NCBI GenBank assembly: GCA_030065115.1
Contig: JASJDO010000001.1
Coordinates: 1-64,000 of the forward strand
Source of the DNA: Rhizobiaceae bacterium
GTDB lineage: Bacteria; Pseudomonadota; Alphaproteobacteria; Rhizobiales; Rhizobiaceae
Reading direction: 5' to 3'
DNA length: 64,000 bases
Made by a program: the position numbers and the translations under genes. Below are positions 1,380 through 33,312 of this stretch, piece after piece. The notes below the pieces were generated by a model. It saw only the letters and a program-made list of their open reading frames with translations, had not been told where the DNA came from and made no database searches. Each line of letters starts with the position of its first letter. Positions within the stretch are counted from its first letter, which is position 1.

Positions 1380-2592
1380 ACCGATTGAGCCAAACTCTTA
1401 TAAAACGGGCCCCGATGAAGCCGGACATTTCGGTATTTTTGGGGGTCGTTACGTTGCCGAAACATTAATGCCGCTGATTCTTGATCTGGAAAAGCACTAT
1501 AATGCAGCCAAGGAAGACGCGGAATTTCAAGCTGAAGTTGAGAATCTCAACAAACACTATACCGGACGGCCGTCACCGCTTTATTTTGCCGAAGGTCTGA
1601 CCGAGCATCTTGGTGGCGCGAAGATTTATTTCAAGCGTGACGAACTCAATCACACAGGATCGCACAAGATAAATAATTGCCTTGGTCAGATATTGCTTGC
1701 CAAGCGCATGGGCAAAACACGCATCATTGCGGAAACAGGCGCTGGGCAACATGGAGTAGCAGCGGCCACAGTTGCAGCAAAGTTTGGTTTTCCATGTGTC
1801 GTCTATATGGGTAAAACGGATGTCGAGCGTCAATCGCCGAACGTTTTTCGGATGAAGCTGCTGGGCGCTGAAATCGTTCCGGTCACCGCCGGTGCTGGGA
1901 CACTTAAAGATGCGATGAATGAAGCGCTTCGCGATTGGGTTACCAATGTGGAAGATACGTACTATCTAATTGGCACTGCTGCCGGACCGCATCCCTATCC
2001 TGAACTTGTCAGGGATTTTCAATCGGTCATTGGCAAGGAATGTCGCGAACAGATCCTGGAAGCCGAAGGTAAACTGCCAGACATGATTTGCGCTGCTGTT
2101 GGCGGTGGTTCCAATGCGATTGGCCTGTTTCATCCATTCCTTGACGACAAGGACGTGCAGATTGTCGGCGTGGAAGCCGGGGGCAAAGGTCTTTCAGGTG
2201 AAGAGCATTGTGCATCACTGTCTGCAGGCAAGCCGGGTGTCTTGCATGGTAACCGCACGTTTTTGCTGCAGGATGATGACGGTCAAATTCTGGAAGGGCA
2301 TTCGATTTCTGCAGGCCTCGACTATCCGGGCATTGGTCCTGAACATTCCTGGCTGAAGGACACCGGCCGCGTTGAGTATGTGCCCATCATGGACACGGAA
2401 GCCTTGGAAGCGTTCCAGCTTCTTTGCAAAACCGAGGGTATTATTCCTGCTCTTGAGCCAAGCCACGCATTGGCTGAGATCGTCAAGCGCGCGCCAAAAA
2501 TGGGTAAGGACCAAGTGATTGTGATGAACCTTTGCGGTCGTGGTGACAAAGACGTATTCACCGTTGGTGCTGCACTTGGCGTTGATCTTTAA
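1363..2592 (+). CDS. trpB: Tryptophan synthase beta chain
   Basis: TrpB condenses indole with serine to make tryptophan, using pyridoxal phosphate, in an alpha2-beta2 complex with TrpA. The 409-residue length is normal. The PLP-binding lysine is Lys102 in the HTGSHKINN motif. The phosphate-binding glycine loop GGGSNAIG and the ETGAGQHG motif of fold type II PLP enzymes are intact. The chosen ATG lies inside the end of trpF (17-base overlap), and the following trpA begins 12 bases after the stop. All catalytic elements I can check are present. Confidence 0.98.
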
Positions 2593-2604
2593 GGGGCTAA
2601 GAAC

Positions 2605-3432
2605 ATGACTTCACGCATTGATGCGCGTTTTGCGGCGCTAAAGGAAGAAGGTCGACCGGGTCTGGTTACTTTTGTAATGGCCGGTGATCCGGATGAGAAC
2701 ACTGCTCTGGAAGTGATCAAGGGCCTGCCCGCGGCTGGCGCTGACCTGATTGAAGTAGGCATGCCGTTTTCAGATCCGATGGCGGATGGCCCCTCGATCC
2801 AGCTTGCTGGTCAGCGTGCGCTCAAAGGTGGCATGACACTTGCCAAGACGCTCAAGACAATTGCGGAGTTCCGAAAGGAAGATCAGGATACACCGATCGT
2901 TTTGATGGGCTATTACAATCCGATCTATATTTATGGAAACGAGAAGTTCATTGAAGATGCAAAGTCTGCTGGTGTTGACGGGTTGATCATTGTTGACGTG
3001 CCGCCTGAGGCAGATGATGAACTCTGTTTGCCTGCCATGGATGCTGGCTTGAATTTTATCCGCCTTGCTACGCCGACCACAGATGGTGATCGCCTGCCTC
3101 GCGTTCTCGAAAATACGTCCGGATTTTTGTACTACGTCTCGATTACGGGCATAACAGGTGCTGCTGCACCTGACCCCGGGAAGGTTGCAGCATCTGTTGC
3201 CAGAATCAAGGAATCAACCGATCTGCCGGTTGCGGTAGGATTTGGTGTCAAGACAGCGCAACAGGCTGCTGATATTGGAAAAGGGGCCGATGGTGTTGTT
3301 GTGGGCTCTGCACTGGTGAGCGCAATTGCCGACAGTCTGGATGAAAACGGAAACGCTACTGCTGAAACGCCATCAGCGGTTCATGTGTTGGTCGCTGACC
3401 TTGCATCCGGCGTTCGCTCTGTTAAACACTGA
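2605..3432 (+). CDS. trpA: Tryptophan synthase alpha chain
   Basis: TrpA splits indole-3-glycerol phosphate to indole and glyceraldehyde-3-phosphate and channels indole to TrpB. The 275-residue TIM barrel carries both catalytic acids: Glu50 in [11 protein letters not shown] and Asp61 in PMADGP. The mobile loop after strand 6 is visible as [11 protein letters not shown], and the phosphate-binding glycines appear as VGFGVKT and VVVGSALV. The gene starts 12 bases after trpB and is followed by accD after 57 bases, as in other rhizobial genomes. Confidence 0.98.
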
Positions 3433-3489
3433 TTTGAATTCTTATATACCGTTACGGCAGCTGCTTCGTAACTTTCAAGGAATGAACCC

Positions 3490-4410
3490 ATGAACTGGAT
3501 TACCAATCTCGTCAGACCAAAAATTGGTGGAATTTTGGGTCGGAAAGATTTGCCGGAGAACCTATGGGTCAAATGTCCGGAATCTGGGGAAATGGTTTTC
3601 CATAAGGATCTGGAAGCGAATATGGGTGTTGTACCCAATTCTGGCTATCACATGAAGATTTCCGCTAAGGAACGGTTGGCACAGTTCTTTGATGGTGGAG
3701 AATACGAAACTCTGGAAATGCCAAAGGTAGCGCAGGATCCACTCAAGTTTCGCGACAAATCGAGATATACCGACAAGCTCAAAGACGCGCGCAAGAAAAC
3801 CGGCCTCGAAGATTCCATTCTTGCCGGCAAGGGAATGGTCGATGATCTTGAGATGATCGCGGTTGTCCATGAGATGGCCTTTATCGGCGGCTCACTTGGA
3901 ATGGCAGCTGGTGAAATGATCATCAAGGCAATGGAACTTGCAGCAGAAACCAAAACACCACTTGTGTTGTTTGCGGCTTCCGGGGGAGCGCGCATGCAGG
4001 AAGGCATACTTTCCCTGATGCAATTGCCACGGACTACTGTTGGTGTGCAAATGATGAAAGATGCCGGTGTTCCTTACATTGTCGTTCTCACCAACCCGAC
4101 TACAGGTGGTGTGTCGGCTTCCTATGCGATGTTGGGCGATGTTCATATTGCCGAACCTGGCGCTGTGATCGGTTTCGCCGGTCGACGTGTGATCGAAGGA
4201 ACCATTCGCGAAAAACTTCCTGATGATTTCCAGACCTCCGAATATCTTCTGGAGCATGGCATGGTAGACATGATCGTCAGCCGTTTGGAGATGAAGTCAA
4301 CGATTTCCCGTGTGGTGCGTTTGATGCTCAATCTCCCACCAGTTGAGGGAGCAAATCCAGATCCTGTGACACAATCAGCTGAACCTGAAACGGTTTCTGA
4401 AGACAGCTAG
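3490..4410 (+). CDS. accD: Acetyl-CoA carboxylase carboxyltransferase subunit beta
   Basis: AccD is half of the carboxyltransferase that moves CO2 from biotin on AccB to acetyl-CoA, giving malonyl-CoA for fatty acid synthesis. The 306-residue protein has the crotonase-like carboxyltransferase core with [27 protein letters not shown] and [10 protein letters not shown]. It is odd in its N-terminal zinc ribbon: where the E. coli protein has four cysteines, only the first remains (Cys29); the others are Ser32, Val48 and Ser51. From memory, related Hyphomicrobiales AccD proteins look the same, so this is probably a lineage trait and not damage. The start ATG follows an AAGGA element (3477-3481). 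Confidence 0.97.
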
Positions 4411-4424
4411 AGTGTAATTCGGCA

Positions 4425-5735
4425 TTGTATCCGCGCACTGAAGCCTTAGTCGAGGAACTTCTCAAAAATCACCCTAAAGGTTTTGACCTTTCGCTCGGGC
4501 GGATAACAGGCTTGCTTGAAAAGCTTGGTAATCCACATGAACGGATTCCTCCCGCGATTCATGTTGCCGGAACCAACGGCAAAGGTTCGACGATTGCATT
4601 TTGTCGTGCAATTCTGGAATCAGCCGGGTACACGGTGCATGTCCATACATCACCGCATCTAGTGAACTGGGGCGAACGATACCGGCTTGCTGGAAATCTA
4701 GTGGATGACAATACGCTGGCTGATGCAATCGAACGTGCAGCAAAAGCAAACGCTGGTACTCCGATCACTGTATTTGAAATCATGTCAGCAGTCATGTTCA
4801 TTTTGTTCAGCGAACATGACGCCGATTATTCGCTGGTTGAAGTTGGCCTCGGGGGTAGGGCGGATGCGACCAATATAATTGAAAATCCTGCGATTTGTGC
4901 CATCGCGCCGATCGGGCTGGATCATCAGGCATATCTGGGTGAAACGATTCGTGAAATTGCCTTCGAGAAAGCTGGCATCATCAAACATAGCACGCCTGTT
5001 GTTGTTGGACCTCAACAGGACGAGGCCAGAGATGTCATTGGAGAAGTTGCTGAGAAACTCCAAGCTCCGATTTCTTTTGCTTTGCAGGATTTTGACTACT
5101 ACCGCGATGCAACTGGCTTTGTGTATCAGGATGAAGATGGATTGCTGGATTTGCCACTTCCGAGGCTTGCAGGAGAACATCAATTAGGAAATGCGGCTCT
5201 GGCGATATCTGCCATCAGGAAAAGTGGCATCGAAGTTTCAGACGAGGCTTTCGCCAAAGCCATGAAACATGTTGTGTGGCCCGGAAGATTGGAGAAGCTT
5301 CCGGCGGGCGAAATTACGACTGAGATTGGGACAGGGGCTGATATCTGGATCGATGGGGGACATAATCCGGATGCGGGTCGCGTAATCGCCACTGAACTTA
5401 AACGACAGATGGTCGGTGATGATCAGAAACTCCTCATGATTTGTGGCATGATCAATACGAAAGAGCCATTGGGCTTTTTCAAACCGTTTTCTGAAATGAA
5501 TACCGAATTGGTCAGTATACCGGTGATGATGAGTGACGCCGGGATAGAGCCCGAGAATCTTGCAGCTTTGGCTGAAGAAGCAGGCCTTCAAGCACAAGCC
5601 ACAGACAGTCTGGAAACTGCAATTGAGATAGCCCGCCAGAAATATGAAAGTGATCCGTCGCTGCGAATATTGTTTTGCGGATCCATCTATATGTTGGGCG
5701 AAGTGCTGGAGAAGAATGGCACGCCTCCGCGGTGA
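4425..5735 (+). CDS. folC: Bifunctional folylpolyglutamate synthase/dihydrofolate synthase
   Basis: FolC adds glutamate to dihydropteroate and then to folates using ATP. It is a Mur-ligase-family protein of 436 residues, normal length. The P-loop is HVAGTNGKGST near residue 47, followed by HTSPHL, the folate-site segment, and GLGGRADATN. The C-terminal Mur-ligase domain contains WIDGGHNPDAG. No ATG or GTG fits the N-terminus. The first plausible start is a TTG at 4425, 14 bases after the accD stop, so translation may depend on coupling to accD. The gene closes the trp-accD-folC series. Confidence 0.95.
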   Translation: MYPRTEALVEELLKNHPKGFDLSLGRITGLLEKLGNPHERIPPAIHVAGTNGKGSTIAFCRAILESAGYTVHVHTSPHLVNWGERYRLAGNLVDDNTLADAIERAAKANAGTPITVFEIMSAVMFILFSEHDADYSLVEVGLGGRADATNIIENPAICAIAPIGLDHQAYLGETIREIAFEKAGIIKHSTPVVVGPQQDEARDVIGEVAEKLQAPISFALQDFDYYRDATGFVYQDEDGLLDLPLPRLAGEHQLGNAALAISAIRKSGIEVSDEAFAKAMKHVVWPGRLEKLPAGEITTEIGTGADIWIDGGHNPDAGRVIATELKRQMVGDDQKLLMICGMINTKEPLGFFKPFSEMNTELVSIPVMMSDAGIEPENLAALAEEAGLQAQATDSLETAIEIARQKYESDPSLRILFCGSIYMLGEVLEKNGTPPR

Positions 5736-29595: not shown

Positions 29596-30981
29596 TTACT
29601 CCGCCAGTGCCTGCATAATCCGTGCCCAGGAACGCGCACCTTTATGGAAACTTTTCAGTTCGTATTTTTCATTCGGCGAATGAATACGGTCATCATCCTG
29701 TGCGAAACCTACAAGCAATGATTCGATGCCCAGAATCTCCTGAAAATGACCTACGACCGGGATTGATCCGCCCATGCCGGTCAGCGCGGTTTTTTTGCCC
29801 CATTCTTCGCTCAATGCGGTTGCTGCCTTCTTCATCTCCGGCATATCATAGCCGAGATGTACCGCCGCGCTGGCGCCATGTTCTTCAAATGTGACTGAGC
29901 AGTCAGCGGGCAATGATGCTTCAACGTATGCCCGGAAGGCTTTACGAATGGCGAGGGGATCCTGCGTCCCAACAAGCCGGAACGATACTTTTGCAGATGC
30001 GATTGCCGGGATGACTGTTTTGAAACCTTCGCCAGTATAACCACCGATGACGCCGTTGAACTCACAAGTTGGGCGGGCCCAGACTTGCTCAAGCACGGAA
30101 CGGCCGCTCTCACCTGCGGGAATTGAAAGTCCGATGTCGCCAAGGAATTCTTCTTCGCTGAAGCCGAGGCCGGCCCACATTTCCTTTATTTCATCCGGTG
30201 TCTCGGGAACACCATCATAAAATCCTGGCACTGTACAACGCCCCTTTTCGTCGTGAAGGCCGGCAAGAATGCGACTGAGGATACGGATTGGGTTCGATGC
30301 AGCTGAACCATACATTCCCGAATGCAGGTCCCGGGAAGCTGCCTGGATGGTGATTTCTTCTCCAAGTAGTCCACGCAGGGCAGTGGAAATTGCTGGTGTT
30401 TCGCGATCCCACATGCCAGTATCGCAGACCAGTGCGAAGTCGGCCTTTAATAATTCCTTGTTGGCTTCAAGAAACGGAATGAGAGAGGGTGAACCGGATT
30501 CTTCTTCACCCTCAAAGAAAATTGTCACCTTCACTGGCAGGCCACCGGTTTCTGATTTCCATGCCCGACAGGCTTCGACAAAGGTCATCAGCTGTCCCTT
30601 GTCGTCAGAGGTGCCGCGACCAGTCATTTGTTTTGAACCGTCAGGCATTTCCTTGATGGACGGTTGGAACGGTGGCTCATCCCATAATTCCAGAGGGTCC
30701 ACGGGCTGAACATCATAGTGACCATAAAATAGAACATGCGGTGCGCCTTCCGGTCCGTCATGATGCGCCACAACCATGGGATGTCCCGGAGTCTCATGCA
30801 GTTTTGCGTCAAATCCAATTGAATTGAGATCGGCGACGAGGATTTCTGCTGCTTTCTTGCATTCGCCGTTATACGCTGGATCAGTTGAAATGCTTTCAAC
30901 CCTCAAGAGTTCGAACAGACGTTCGATAGAGGTGTCGAGATTTGCATCAATTGAACTTAGTACGGCATCGATTTGTGACAT
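29596..30981 (-). CDS. M20-family metallodipeptidase
   Basis: This 461-residue zinc peptidase of the M20 (CNDP-like) family is probably cytoplasmic. The metal ligands are visible: FYGHYDVQPVDP, the EGEEESGSPSL pair with the catalytic glutamate, CDTGMWD, and a final histidine in DDRIHSPNEKYEL. The lid domain lies between. Start ATG 30981 follows a strong AGGAG. It probably cleaves dipeptides or related amide bonds; the exact substrate is unknown. The 341 bases upstream, before the divergent OsmC gene, hold the structured element described separately. Confidence 0.93.
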   Translation of the reverse strand: MSQIDAVLSSIDANLDTSIERLFELLRVESISTDPAYNGECKKAAEILVADLNSIGFDAKLHETPGHPMVVAHHDGPEGAPHVLFYGHYDVQPVDPLELWDEPPFQPSIKEMPDGSKQMTGRGTSDDKGQLMTFVEACRAWKSETGGLPVKVTIFFEGEEESGSPSLIPFLEANKELLKADFALVCDTGMWDRETPAISTALRGLLGEEITIQAASRDLHSGMYGSAASNPIRILSRILAGLHDEKGRCTVPGFYDGVPETPDEIKEMWAGLGFSEEEFLGDIGLSIPAGESGRSVLEQVWARPTCEFNGVIGGYTGEGFKTVIPAIASAKVSFRLVGTQDPLAIRKAFRAYVEASLPADCSVTFEEHGASAAVHLGYDMPEMKKAATALSEEWGKKTALTGMGGSIPVVGHFQEILGIESLLVGFAQDDDRIHSPNEKYELKSFHKGARSWARIMQALAE

Positions 30982-31081
30982 GAAAAACTCCTGAATTTGA
31001 GCATACACTAGTGCTCCAATTTGGGAGTGTCATGACAAATTTGATACTGGATGGCGTTTTTTGAAATTCTGGTTCTGTTTG

Positions 31082-31230
31082 CTGACCGGATCGTTGTCTG
31101 GGTGTCGGCGGGTAGGGGAAGGTAGACAACGATCCGGGTCAGTAATGGGACAGACAGTTTGGGCTTCTGGTCCGTCCTTCCCGTGTTGGCTCAGGGGAGG
31201 GCCGCTTCGGGAAAGTTGTCATCGACAACT
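31082..31230. ncRNA. Candidate structured RNA: four hairpins and a possible pseudoknot
   Basis: Four inverted repeats follow one another in this gap. H1: arms 31082-31099 and 31124-31142 pair over 18 bases with one bulge, around a 24-base G-rich loop. H2: 31148-31157 with 31167-31177, nine pairs with one mismatch and one bulge. H3: TTCCCG 31178-31183 with CGGGAA 31208-31213. H4: AGTTGTC 31214-31220 with GACAACT 31224-31230, loop of three. The H1 loop also holds GGGAAGG (31116-31122), complementary to CCTTCCC (31176-31182), which allows a pseudoknot as an alternative to H3. GC content is clearly higher than in the flanks. I cannot match it to a known RNA family, and strand is unknown. Confidence 0.45.
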
Positions 31231-31322
31231 GATAGGTATATTGGCATTCTCCCTGAAGATTACAAGAAACGAAAACGCGACCGGCTGTAACGCCTGTGTG
31301 AGTGAATCGAGAGAAGTTTGTG

Positions 31323-31793
31323 ATGGCAAAAAAGCATGATTTTCCCTCCCGTATTGTCTGGACCGGAAACCGCGGAACGGGAACCTCAGCCTATCGCGAC
31401 TATGATAGAACCTGGGATATGGCTCTCGAAGGTAAAGTTGTTCTAAGCTGTTCAAATGATCCGCTTCTCGGGGGAGATCCGTCAAAGTATAATCCTGAAG
31501 ACATGATGATTGCGTCTATCGCATCATGCCACATGCTTTGGTATCTGCATCTTTGTTCGCAGGCCGGTGTTACAGTTGTTGCCTATGAAGACAATCCGAT
31601 TGGGATTGGCGAAAGTGAACCGGATGGAACGGGCAGGTTTCTCGAAGCGATTCTGAAGCCAAAGATTACGATTACCGCTGAAAGCGATCCTGAAAAGGCG
31701 CTTAGCCTTCATGATGAAATACACAAATATTGTTTTATTGCCCGATCGATAAATTTTCCGGTTCGCTATGAACCTGAAATCGTGCAGCAGTGA
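31323..31793 (+). CDS. OsmC-family peroxide-detoxifying protein
   Basis: This small protein of 156 residues belongs to the OsmC/Ohr family, which reduces organic hydroperoxides with a cysteine pair. The two family cysteines appear in IASCHMLW and HKYCFIARS. The N-terminal WTGNRGTGTSAYRDYDRTW stretch is typical of the YhfA-like branch. The ATG at 31323 follows GAGAGAAG; an in-frame GTG at 31302 is less likely. It may be controlled by the structured element upstream. Its stop touches that of the convergent GNAT gene. Confidence 0.92.
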   Translation: MAKKHDFPSRIVWTGNRGTGTSAYRDYDRTWDMALEGKVVLSCSNDPLLGGDPSKYNPEDMMIASIASCHMLWYLHLCSQAGVTVVAYEDNPIGIGESEPDGTGRFLEAILKPKITITAESDPEKALSLHDEIHKYCFIARSINFPVRYEPEIVQQ

Positions 31794-32300: not shown

Positions 32301-32502
32301 GCCGCCATTAAAATTTACTTTTTGTTAACCAACAAGTGGAAAGTGCAAAACCCCCGGCTTTTCTGGCAATTTGCTGTCAGAAAAGCTCAACTTGACGGCT
32401 ATTGACCCAGATTGTAACACTTTCTGCATGGGGACAACGCGAATTCCCCATGAGGCGTCAGCCCAAATTCGCATTCGAAACCTGTCAAAGGGAGAATGCG
32501 CC

Positions 32503-33312
32503 ATGGCGTCACCGAATCAGATAACCATTTCAAAATTGCTGCGATTGATCGGTACAAGGGATTGTCCGGTCCTTCTGGATGTATGCATTGATGAAGACTT
32601 CAATGAGGATCCAAGACTGATTCCCTCAGCAAGGCGAATCCCCTTTCATGCGATAGGCAATGTTGTCTCTGAAGTGCGTGACAAGAAGGTGGTTGTCATT
32701 TGCCAGAAGGGATTGAAACTCAGTGCAGGGGCTTCTGCGCTCTTGCGAGCAGATGGTGTAGACGCCGAGTATCTTGAAGGCGGCCTTCTTGCGTGGCGCG
32801 CTGCCTCTGCCCCATTGGTGCCGTTCAACGCCATCCCGGACAATAGCGACCATGGTGGAACTTTGTGGGTTACCCGGCACAGGCCCAAAATCGACAGGAT
32901 TGCCTGCCCTTGGCTGATCCGCCGATTCGTCGACCGTCAAGCCCGGTTCCTGTTTGTGGAACCTTCACAGGTTGAATTGGTGGCGGAGAAGTTTGGAGCA
33001 ACAGCATTTGATATCGAAAATACCTTCTGGGGTCATCGTCGGGATGGGTGTACATTCGACACCATGATTGGTGAGTTTTCACTAAACACAGAACCGTTAA
33101 AGCGAATGGCAGAGATCATCCGTGCAGCGGATACCGGCAATCTCGACGCAGTTTCTGAAGCGGCAGGCGTTTCAGCACTTTTGCTTGGCTTGTCACGAAT
33201 GTTTAAAGATGATTTGCCTCAGCTTGAGGCGGGGGTGTTGTTGTTTGATGCGCTTTACCTGTGGTGCCGCGACGCAATTGATGAAACCCATTCCAGCATG
33301 AGGCAAAGATGA
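32503..33312 (+). CDS. Rhodanese-ChrB fusion, chromate-resistance accessory protein
   Basis: The 269-residue protein joins a rhodanese-like domain (about 1-110, VVVICQKGLKLSAG with the active-site cysteine) to a ChrB-type C-terminal domain (RHRPKIDRIACPWLIRRFVD, then ENTFWGHRRDGCTFDTMI). ChrB proteins accompany the ChrA chromate exporter as regulator or accessory enzyme. Its stop overlaps the chrA start by four bases (ATGA), so the two are coupled. The ATG at 32503 follows GGGAGAA and gives a rhodanese N-terminus. The earlier open frame adds no recognisable domain. Confidence 0.88.
   Translation: MASPNQITISKLLRLIGTRDCPVLLDVCIDEDFNEDPRLIPSARRIPFHAIGNVVSEVRDKKVVVICQKGLKLSAGASALLRADGVDAEYLEGGLLAWRAASAPLVPFNAIPDNSDHGGTLWVTRHRPKIDRIACPWLIRRFVDRQARFLFVEPSQVELVAEKFGATAFDIENTFWGHRRDGCTFDTMIGEFSLNTEPLKRMAEIIRAADTGNLDAVSEAAGVSALLLGLSRMFKDDLPQLEAGVLLFDALYLWCRDAIDETHSSMRQR

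Follow-up and report, generated by a model that had tools for sequence, protein, structure and literature searches.

The question raised by this locus is what the dense cluster of hairpins between a dipeptidase gene and an osmC-like gene represents in the window, by which we mean the whole 64-kb stretch of DNA that was analysed. The first-pass annotation had left several readings side by side: a riboswitch-like leader of the osmC-like gene, a leader of the dipeptidase gene on the other strand, a stand-alone RNA, or a palindromic repeat element. The stand-alone RNA proved right in kind; with considerable confidence, the element is best explained as a predicted minus-strand gene for a small RNA roughly 150 nt long, a strongly diverged representative of the ar7 type. 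Its parts and neighbours are the following.

29596–30981, minus strand: M20 family dipeptidase-like gene (Pfam Peptidase_M20 and M20_dimer; NCBIfam PRK09104), 100 bases downstream of hairpin H1.
31082–31230, minus strand: predicted small RNA gene, about 149–150 nt, with a start near 31230 predicted from the candidate promoter and the last paired base at 31082; delimited by matches to the covariance models R1 and (unfiltered, full length) R2 described below.
31082–31142, minus strand: H1, 18 pairs, loop ACCUUCCCCUACCCGCCGACACCC at 31100–31123; the last hairpin of the RNA, lacking a U-run in the window.
31148–31177, minus strand: H2, loop AAGCCCAAA at 31158–31166.
31178–31213, minus strand: H3, C-rich loop CCUCCCCUGAG at 31190–31200.
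31214–31230, minus strand: H4, short 5' hairpin, drawn from folds; its sequence varies among species.
31238–31243, minus strand: candidate -10 box CAATAT, chosen by eye.
31261–31266, minus strand: candidate -35 box CTTGTA, chosen by eye.
31323–31793, plus strand: osmC-like gene (Pfam OsmC), the divergent neighbour, judged to lie outside the RNA gene.

The hairpins of 31082–31230 are real. The 18-pair hairpin with one bulge that had been read from the letters (31082–31099 with 31124–31142) is present in the sequence as H1, the three further hairpins said to follow it were located as H2, H3 and H4, and the rise in G+C is indeed confined to the element (0.59 over 31082–31230 vs. 0.38 and 0.46 on either side). 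The region 31060–31260 folds with -79.8 kcal/mol as the plus strand and -63.3 kcal/mol as the minus strand, the corresponding folding z values being -3.15 and -4.79; among 200 dinucleotide shuffles, none folded as well on either strand. The suggested pseudoknot between GGGAAGG and CCTTCCC did not hold up in the same way: the complementary pair exists, but among 10 genomes of the genus only G005, the nearest relative, shares it with the window, and it is therefore not conserved. Inspection of the genus alignment by eye also suggested, in two rows, a possible contact of another kind, between AUGCCCA in the H2 loop and UGGGCAU in H3.

The genus set comprised 12 genomes, the named records among them being uncultured Rhizobiaceae, and the M20 gene was found in 11; it was not found in G003, a genome that is 71% complete. 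The covariance model R1 was built from eight sequences of the genus, excluding the window and G005, and its own structure lacks H2. It finds the window element end to end (31213–31071, minus strand, 62.7 bits, E 1.2e-14), as its only match at E<=10 in the 64 kb and its only match at E<=1 in the 3.2-Mb host genome. Upstream of the M20 gene and on its strand, R1 matches strongly in 10 of the 11 genus genomes (eight of these matches being the model-building sequences, which match by construction) and weakly in G011 (15.7 bits). In all 11 genus loci measured, 69–118 bases separate the element from the downstream start of the M20 gene, which shares its strand. Across 151 genomes of the family, R1 gave matches at E<=1 in six, of which three belong to the genus and two to genus g77, the sixth match standing at E 0.7. 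Another R1 match (23.6 bits, E 7e-4) lies at 3538–3678 on the plus strand of locus L176 (genome G099), beyond osmC (2960–3418) and not before the M20 gene, and may be a copy of the RNA that has changed its place.

Compensatory base changes, which the first-pass annotation had proposed looking for in the arms, are present: 23 of 35 named pairs changed on both sides, comprising 6/10 in H3, 8/8 in H2 and 9/17 in H1, where 97.1% of cells are paired. The poorest fit is that of H3 (69.7% of cells), whose outer stem is shifted in the window and G005. RNAalifold predicted 30 pairs from 10 genus sequences, 19 of them with compensatory changes; the remaining sequence, G011, was omitted from this alignment (A1) and from the eight-row alignment A2 because its element looked degenerate. 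Over the 35 named pairs, 53 cells carried both-side changes vs. a shuffled mean of 21.9, with 0 of 500 shuffles as high, a control that leaves relatedness in and concerns a structure drawn from the same alignment; sliding the arms against each other abolishes the signal. All 10 genus sequences keep UCCCC unchanged in the H3 loop and GCCCA in the H2 loop.

The minus strand is the favoured strand of the RNA. Folding z is lower on the minus than on the plus strand in 11/11 genus genomes. Strict, strand-symmetric pair scoring counted 24 G-U vs. 3 A-C pairs when read as the minus strand, a scoring adopted after the result of a looser one was known and whose binomial value is made too small by sequence kinship; the first, looser scoring, which overran the helices, gave 61 G-U vs. 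52 A-C and no asymmetry. These observations bear on the notion that the element is a plus-strand leader of osmC, or else a palindromic repeat, both of which would suit hairpins that fold on either strand and, for the leader, an osmC gene that stands divergently beside the element in 7 of the 11 genus genomes (G000, G004, G005, G006, G008, G010 and G011). Yet pair asymmetry, folding z and the match to ar7 agree on the minus strand, and G007 and G009 (97% and 99% complete) carry the element although neither gave an osmC match at E<=0.001; the osmC leader is thus unsupported. The repeat reading fails because the genome copy search returned a single copy (one match at E<=0.001 and one R1 match), and a plasmid search found no match to the element. 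Taken together, the osmC leader and the repeat are extremely improbable. Beyond osmC, a chrB-a RNA (RF03078, 66.3 bits) occupies 32425–32505 on the plus strand, ahead of genes for a ChrB/rhodanese-domain protein and a chromate transporter; it is a known cis-regulatory RNA and separate from the hairpin element.

An identification through Rfam, another check that had been suggested, returned no match for the element at gathering scores. At E<=10 the sole line was a 10.5-bit plus-strand match far under the cut-off of its family, taken as chance, and the ar7 model (RF02342) gave no match to the element even at this threshold; the best weak ar7 matches in G000, G004, G007 and G009 fall elsewhere than the element. 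The ar7 model matched 124 of the 151 family genomes at E<=0.001, 99 of them above the cut-off, and none of the three genus genomes at E<=0.001. In most of the Rhizobiaceae searched, ar7 occupies the place that the element has in the genus. Among 20 M20 loci, 15 contained an Rfam ar7 match, 14 of which end 77–127 bases before the M20 gene on the same strand, while the fifteenth, in L068, ends 698 bases before it; no Rfam ar7 match was found in the three genus loci, L054 or L111. The L068 locus (Agrobacterium pusense) also carries matches to ar7, ar35, the C1_109596F thermometer and ar14 within about 3.2 kb (2171–5339).

A second covariance model, R2, was built from 21 ar7 sequences only. With default filters it did not find the window element; unfiltered, it placed the element first of 26 matches (31234–31083, minus strand, 17.5 bits, E 0.0022), the next match in the window reaching 12.7 bits (E 0.043). 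Applied to 28 loci, R2 gave 11 matches, 10 of them at the M20-upstream place and strand: two in the genus, end to end (G009, E 3.9e-4, and G007, E 1.7e-3), and eight outside it (G177, G087, G015, G068, G143, G112, G022 and G148). It missed 9/11 genus loci and 9/17 other loci. A third model, R3, built from eight bridge and six ar7 sequences with no member of the genus, obtained only 11 pairs; it missed the window element and gave four matches in the 11 genus loci, one at E 0.9. As a caveat, E-values of home-built models such as R1 and R2 should be read as approximate. Rfam ar7 matches the G087 genome best (E 0.018) at the very place that R1 picks out there, and the loops of this place are of ar7 type in H3 and of genus type in H1. 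The link of the element to ar7 is weak where it is direct and stronger where it runs through relatives.

These intermediates also weigh on the view that an unrelated small RNA took the place of ar7 at this locus and acquired its C-rich loops by convergence. This view would account for H1 and H2 loops unlike those of ar7, for the failure of the Rfam ar7 model to recognise the element, and for bridge genomes such as G073, which have hairpins at this place that no model sees; it sits badly with the end-to-end matches of an ar7-only model in G007 and G009, with its unfiltered match in the window at the same boundaries, with the g77 bridge sequences, which combine an ar7-type H3 loop with a genus-type H1 loop, and with a promoter spacing similar to that of ar7. 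Replacement by an unrelated RNA therefore appears very unlikely. The hairpins of G073 (locus L169) lie between the M20 gene and osmC, before M20, and have C-rich loops; neither R1 nor R2 finds them, and they are perhaps a further diverged form.

The element is very likely a diverged ortholog of ar7. Rfam ar7 (RF02342) is presumably the Sinorhizobium meliloti RNA SmrC7, also called sra03 and SmelC023, an equation that fits the shared polA locus. SmelC023, sra03 and SmrC7 are given as names of one RNA in PMC7143759. Its gene adjoins that of DNA polymerase I, and of its four hairpins the 5' domain is described as variable, the two in the middle as carrying conserved loops on stems that vary, and the last as a terminator (PMC3927594); the length is reported as 147 nt for SmelC023 (PMC2873474) and as 148–150 nt for SmrC7, with a processed form of 106 nt (PMC2780559). 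The element has this same arrangement, with a variable 5' hairpin, two conserved loops on varying stems and a 3' hairpin. Its hairpin loops, like those of ar7, are C-rich; it lies on the same strand before the M20 gene, as do ar7 loci outside the genus; and it resembles ar7 in its candidate CTTG-type -35 box, its 17-base spacer and its predicted length of about 150 nt. The two differ in that the element goes unrecognised by the Rfam model, its H2 loop reads GCCCAA where ar7 has AUCCCCCUCUCC, its H1 loop carries CUACCCRCCGAC, and the U-run of a Rho-independent terminator is absent from it in the window. The window also differs in the absence of polA, and in G004 and G006 osmC sits between the element and polA; in G007 and G009, polA is within about 900 bases of the element, beyond one intervening gene. 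Among 80 named M20 loci, 52 contain polA, which Pfam confirms in L076. Mesorhizobium huakuii 7653R is a case where Smr7C is stated as not discovered (PMC5596092), unlike several other Mesorhizobium loci, L076 among them, in which Rfam ar7 is present.

On the minus strand, the 5' hairpin is preceded by CTTGTA-N17-CAATAT. By eye, NTTGNN and a 17-base spacer can be recognised in the nine genus members shown, with a poor -10 box in G006, and similar boxes also precede ar7. A strict consensus promoter scan found nothing at the element. The implied length is about 150 nt here and a predicted 144–165 nt in the relatives. In many of 15 ar7 loci an inverted repeat, TTACA-N4-TGTAA, stands about 10 bases before the -35 box (at about 2701–2716 in L076), and looks like a putative regulator binding site. 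At the 3' end, a T-run following H1 was noted by eye in six genus members and is absent in the window, G005, G004, G007 and G009; a terminator scan of 30950–31340 found none.

The last of these results is what a cis-acting leader of the dipeptidase gene would lead one to expect, that is, a riboswitch-like or attenuator RNA on the minus strand that runs on into the M20 gene and controls it by folding. The shared strand, which the first-pass annotation had allowed for, stands, and so does the constant proximity of 69–118 bases in 11/11 genus loci; the T-run after the last hairpin in six genus members speaks against it, as does the occurrence of SmrC7 as a discrete transcript in S. meliloti (PMC2780559). 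The distances at ar7 loci disfavour the leader further. Among 30 such loci, polA was found in 28 and M20 in 26; the M20 start follows ar7, always on the same strand, at 83–198 bases in 12 loci and at 505–1070 bases in 14, and four have no M20 gene in the locus. Since the spacing varies in this way, ar7 is not simply an M20 leader, although in the window species transcription may read through into M20; a leader function for the element is quite unlikely.

As a small RNA of the ar7 type, the element would be transcribed from the candidate promoter at 31238–31266 on the minus strand and would act in trans on several mRNAs. The three C-rich loops may pair with sequences near start codons that are G-rich or resemble a Shine-Dalgarno site, and such pairing would mostly repress the target mRNAs, as has been published for the analogous sX13 of Xanthomonas; by this analogy, the mechanism is reasonably plausible. 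According to PMC3771888, sX13 has three stable hairpins whose apical C-rich loops repress mRNAs carrying G-rich motifs close to the start; its authors point out that ar7, too, lies at polA and has C-rich loops, and they state that sX13 has no sequence similarity to ar7. Like ar7, sX13 has C-rich hairpin loops and a gene beside polA; it belongs to another class of bacteria and is taken here as an analogue, with no claim of homology. The Cuckoo RNAs of Rhizobiales likewise have C-rich, anti-Shine-Dalgarno-like loops, with the motif CUCCUCCC. This motif is absent from the element, which shares with them the C-rich, anti-Shine-Dalgarno-like character of the loops. PmaR of Agrobacterium was also considered for its C-rich loop; it is not identical to the RNA predicted here because it is described as one long stem and as restricted to Agrobacterium and one Rhizobium strain (PMC6234868). 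Expression data exist for SmrC7, which is up about 13-fold in nodules (PMC2780559); no established target was found for it in the open-access literature consulted.

The present reading explains an unannotated structured element and would extend the ar7/SmrC7 family to genera in which the Rfam model has no significant match; the bridge sequences of g77, G015, G068 and G143 are material for a better family model. A bolder proposal, which we consider rather unlikely, is that ar7 has swapped its target-recognising loops in this genus (H2 to GCCCAA, H1 to CCCUACCCRCCGAC) with its locus, promoter spacing and layout retained, and that the species of the window has in addition lost the terminator, so that a single RNA could serve in trans and also as the leader of the dipeptidase mRNA. 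The presumed target-choosing loops are conserved within the genus but unlike those of classical ar7, and a comparison of targets could therefore test for a change of small RNA regulon; if the loop exchange is true, these genomes would form a natural series in which the rewiring of a small RNA regulon may be watched.
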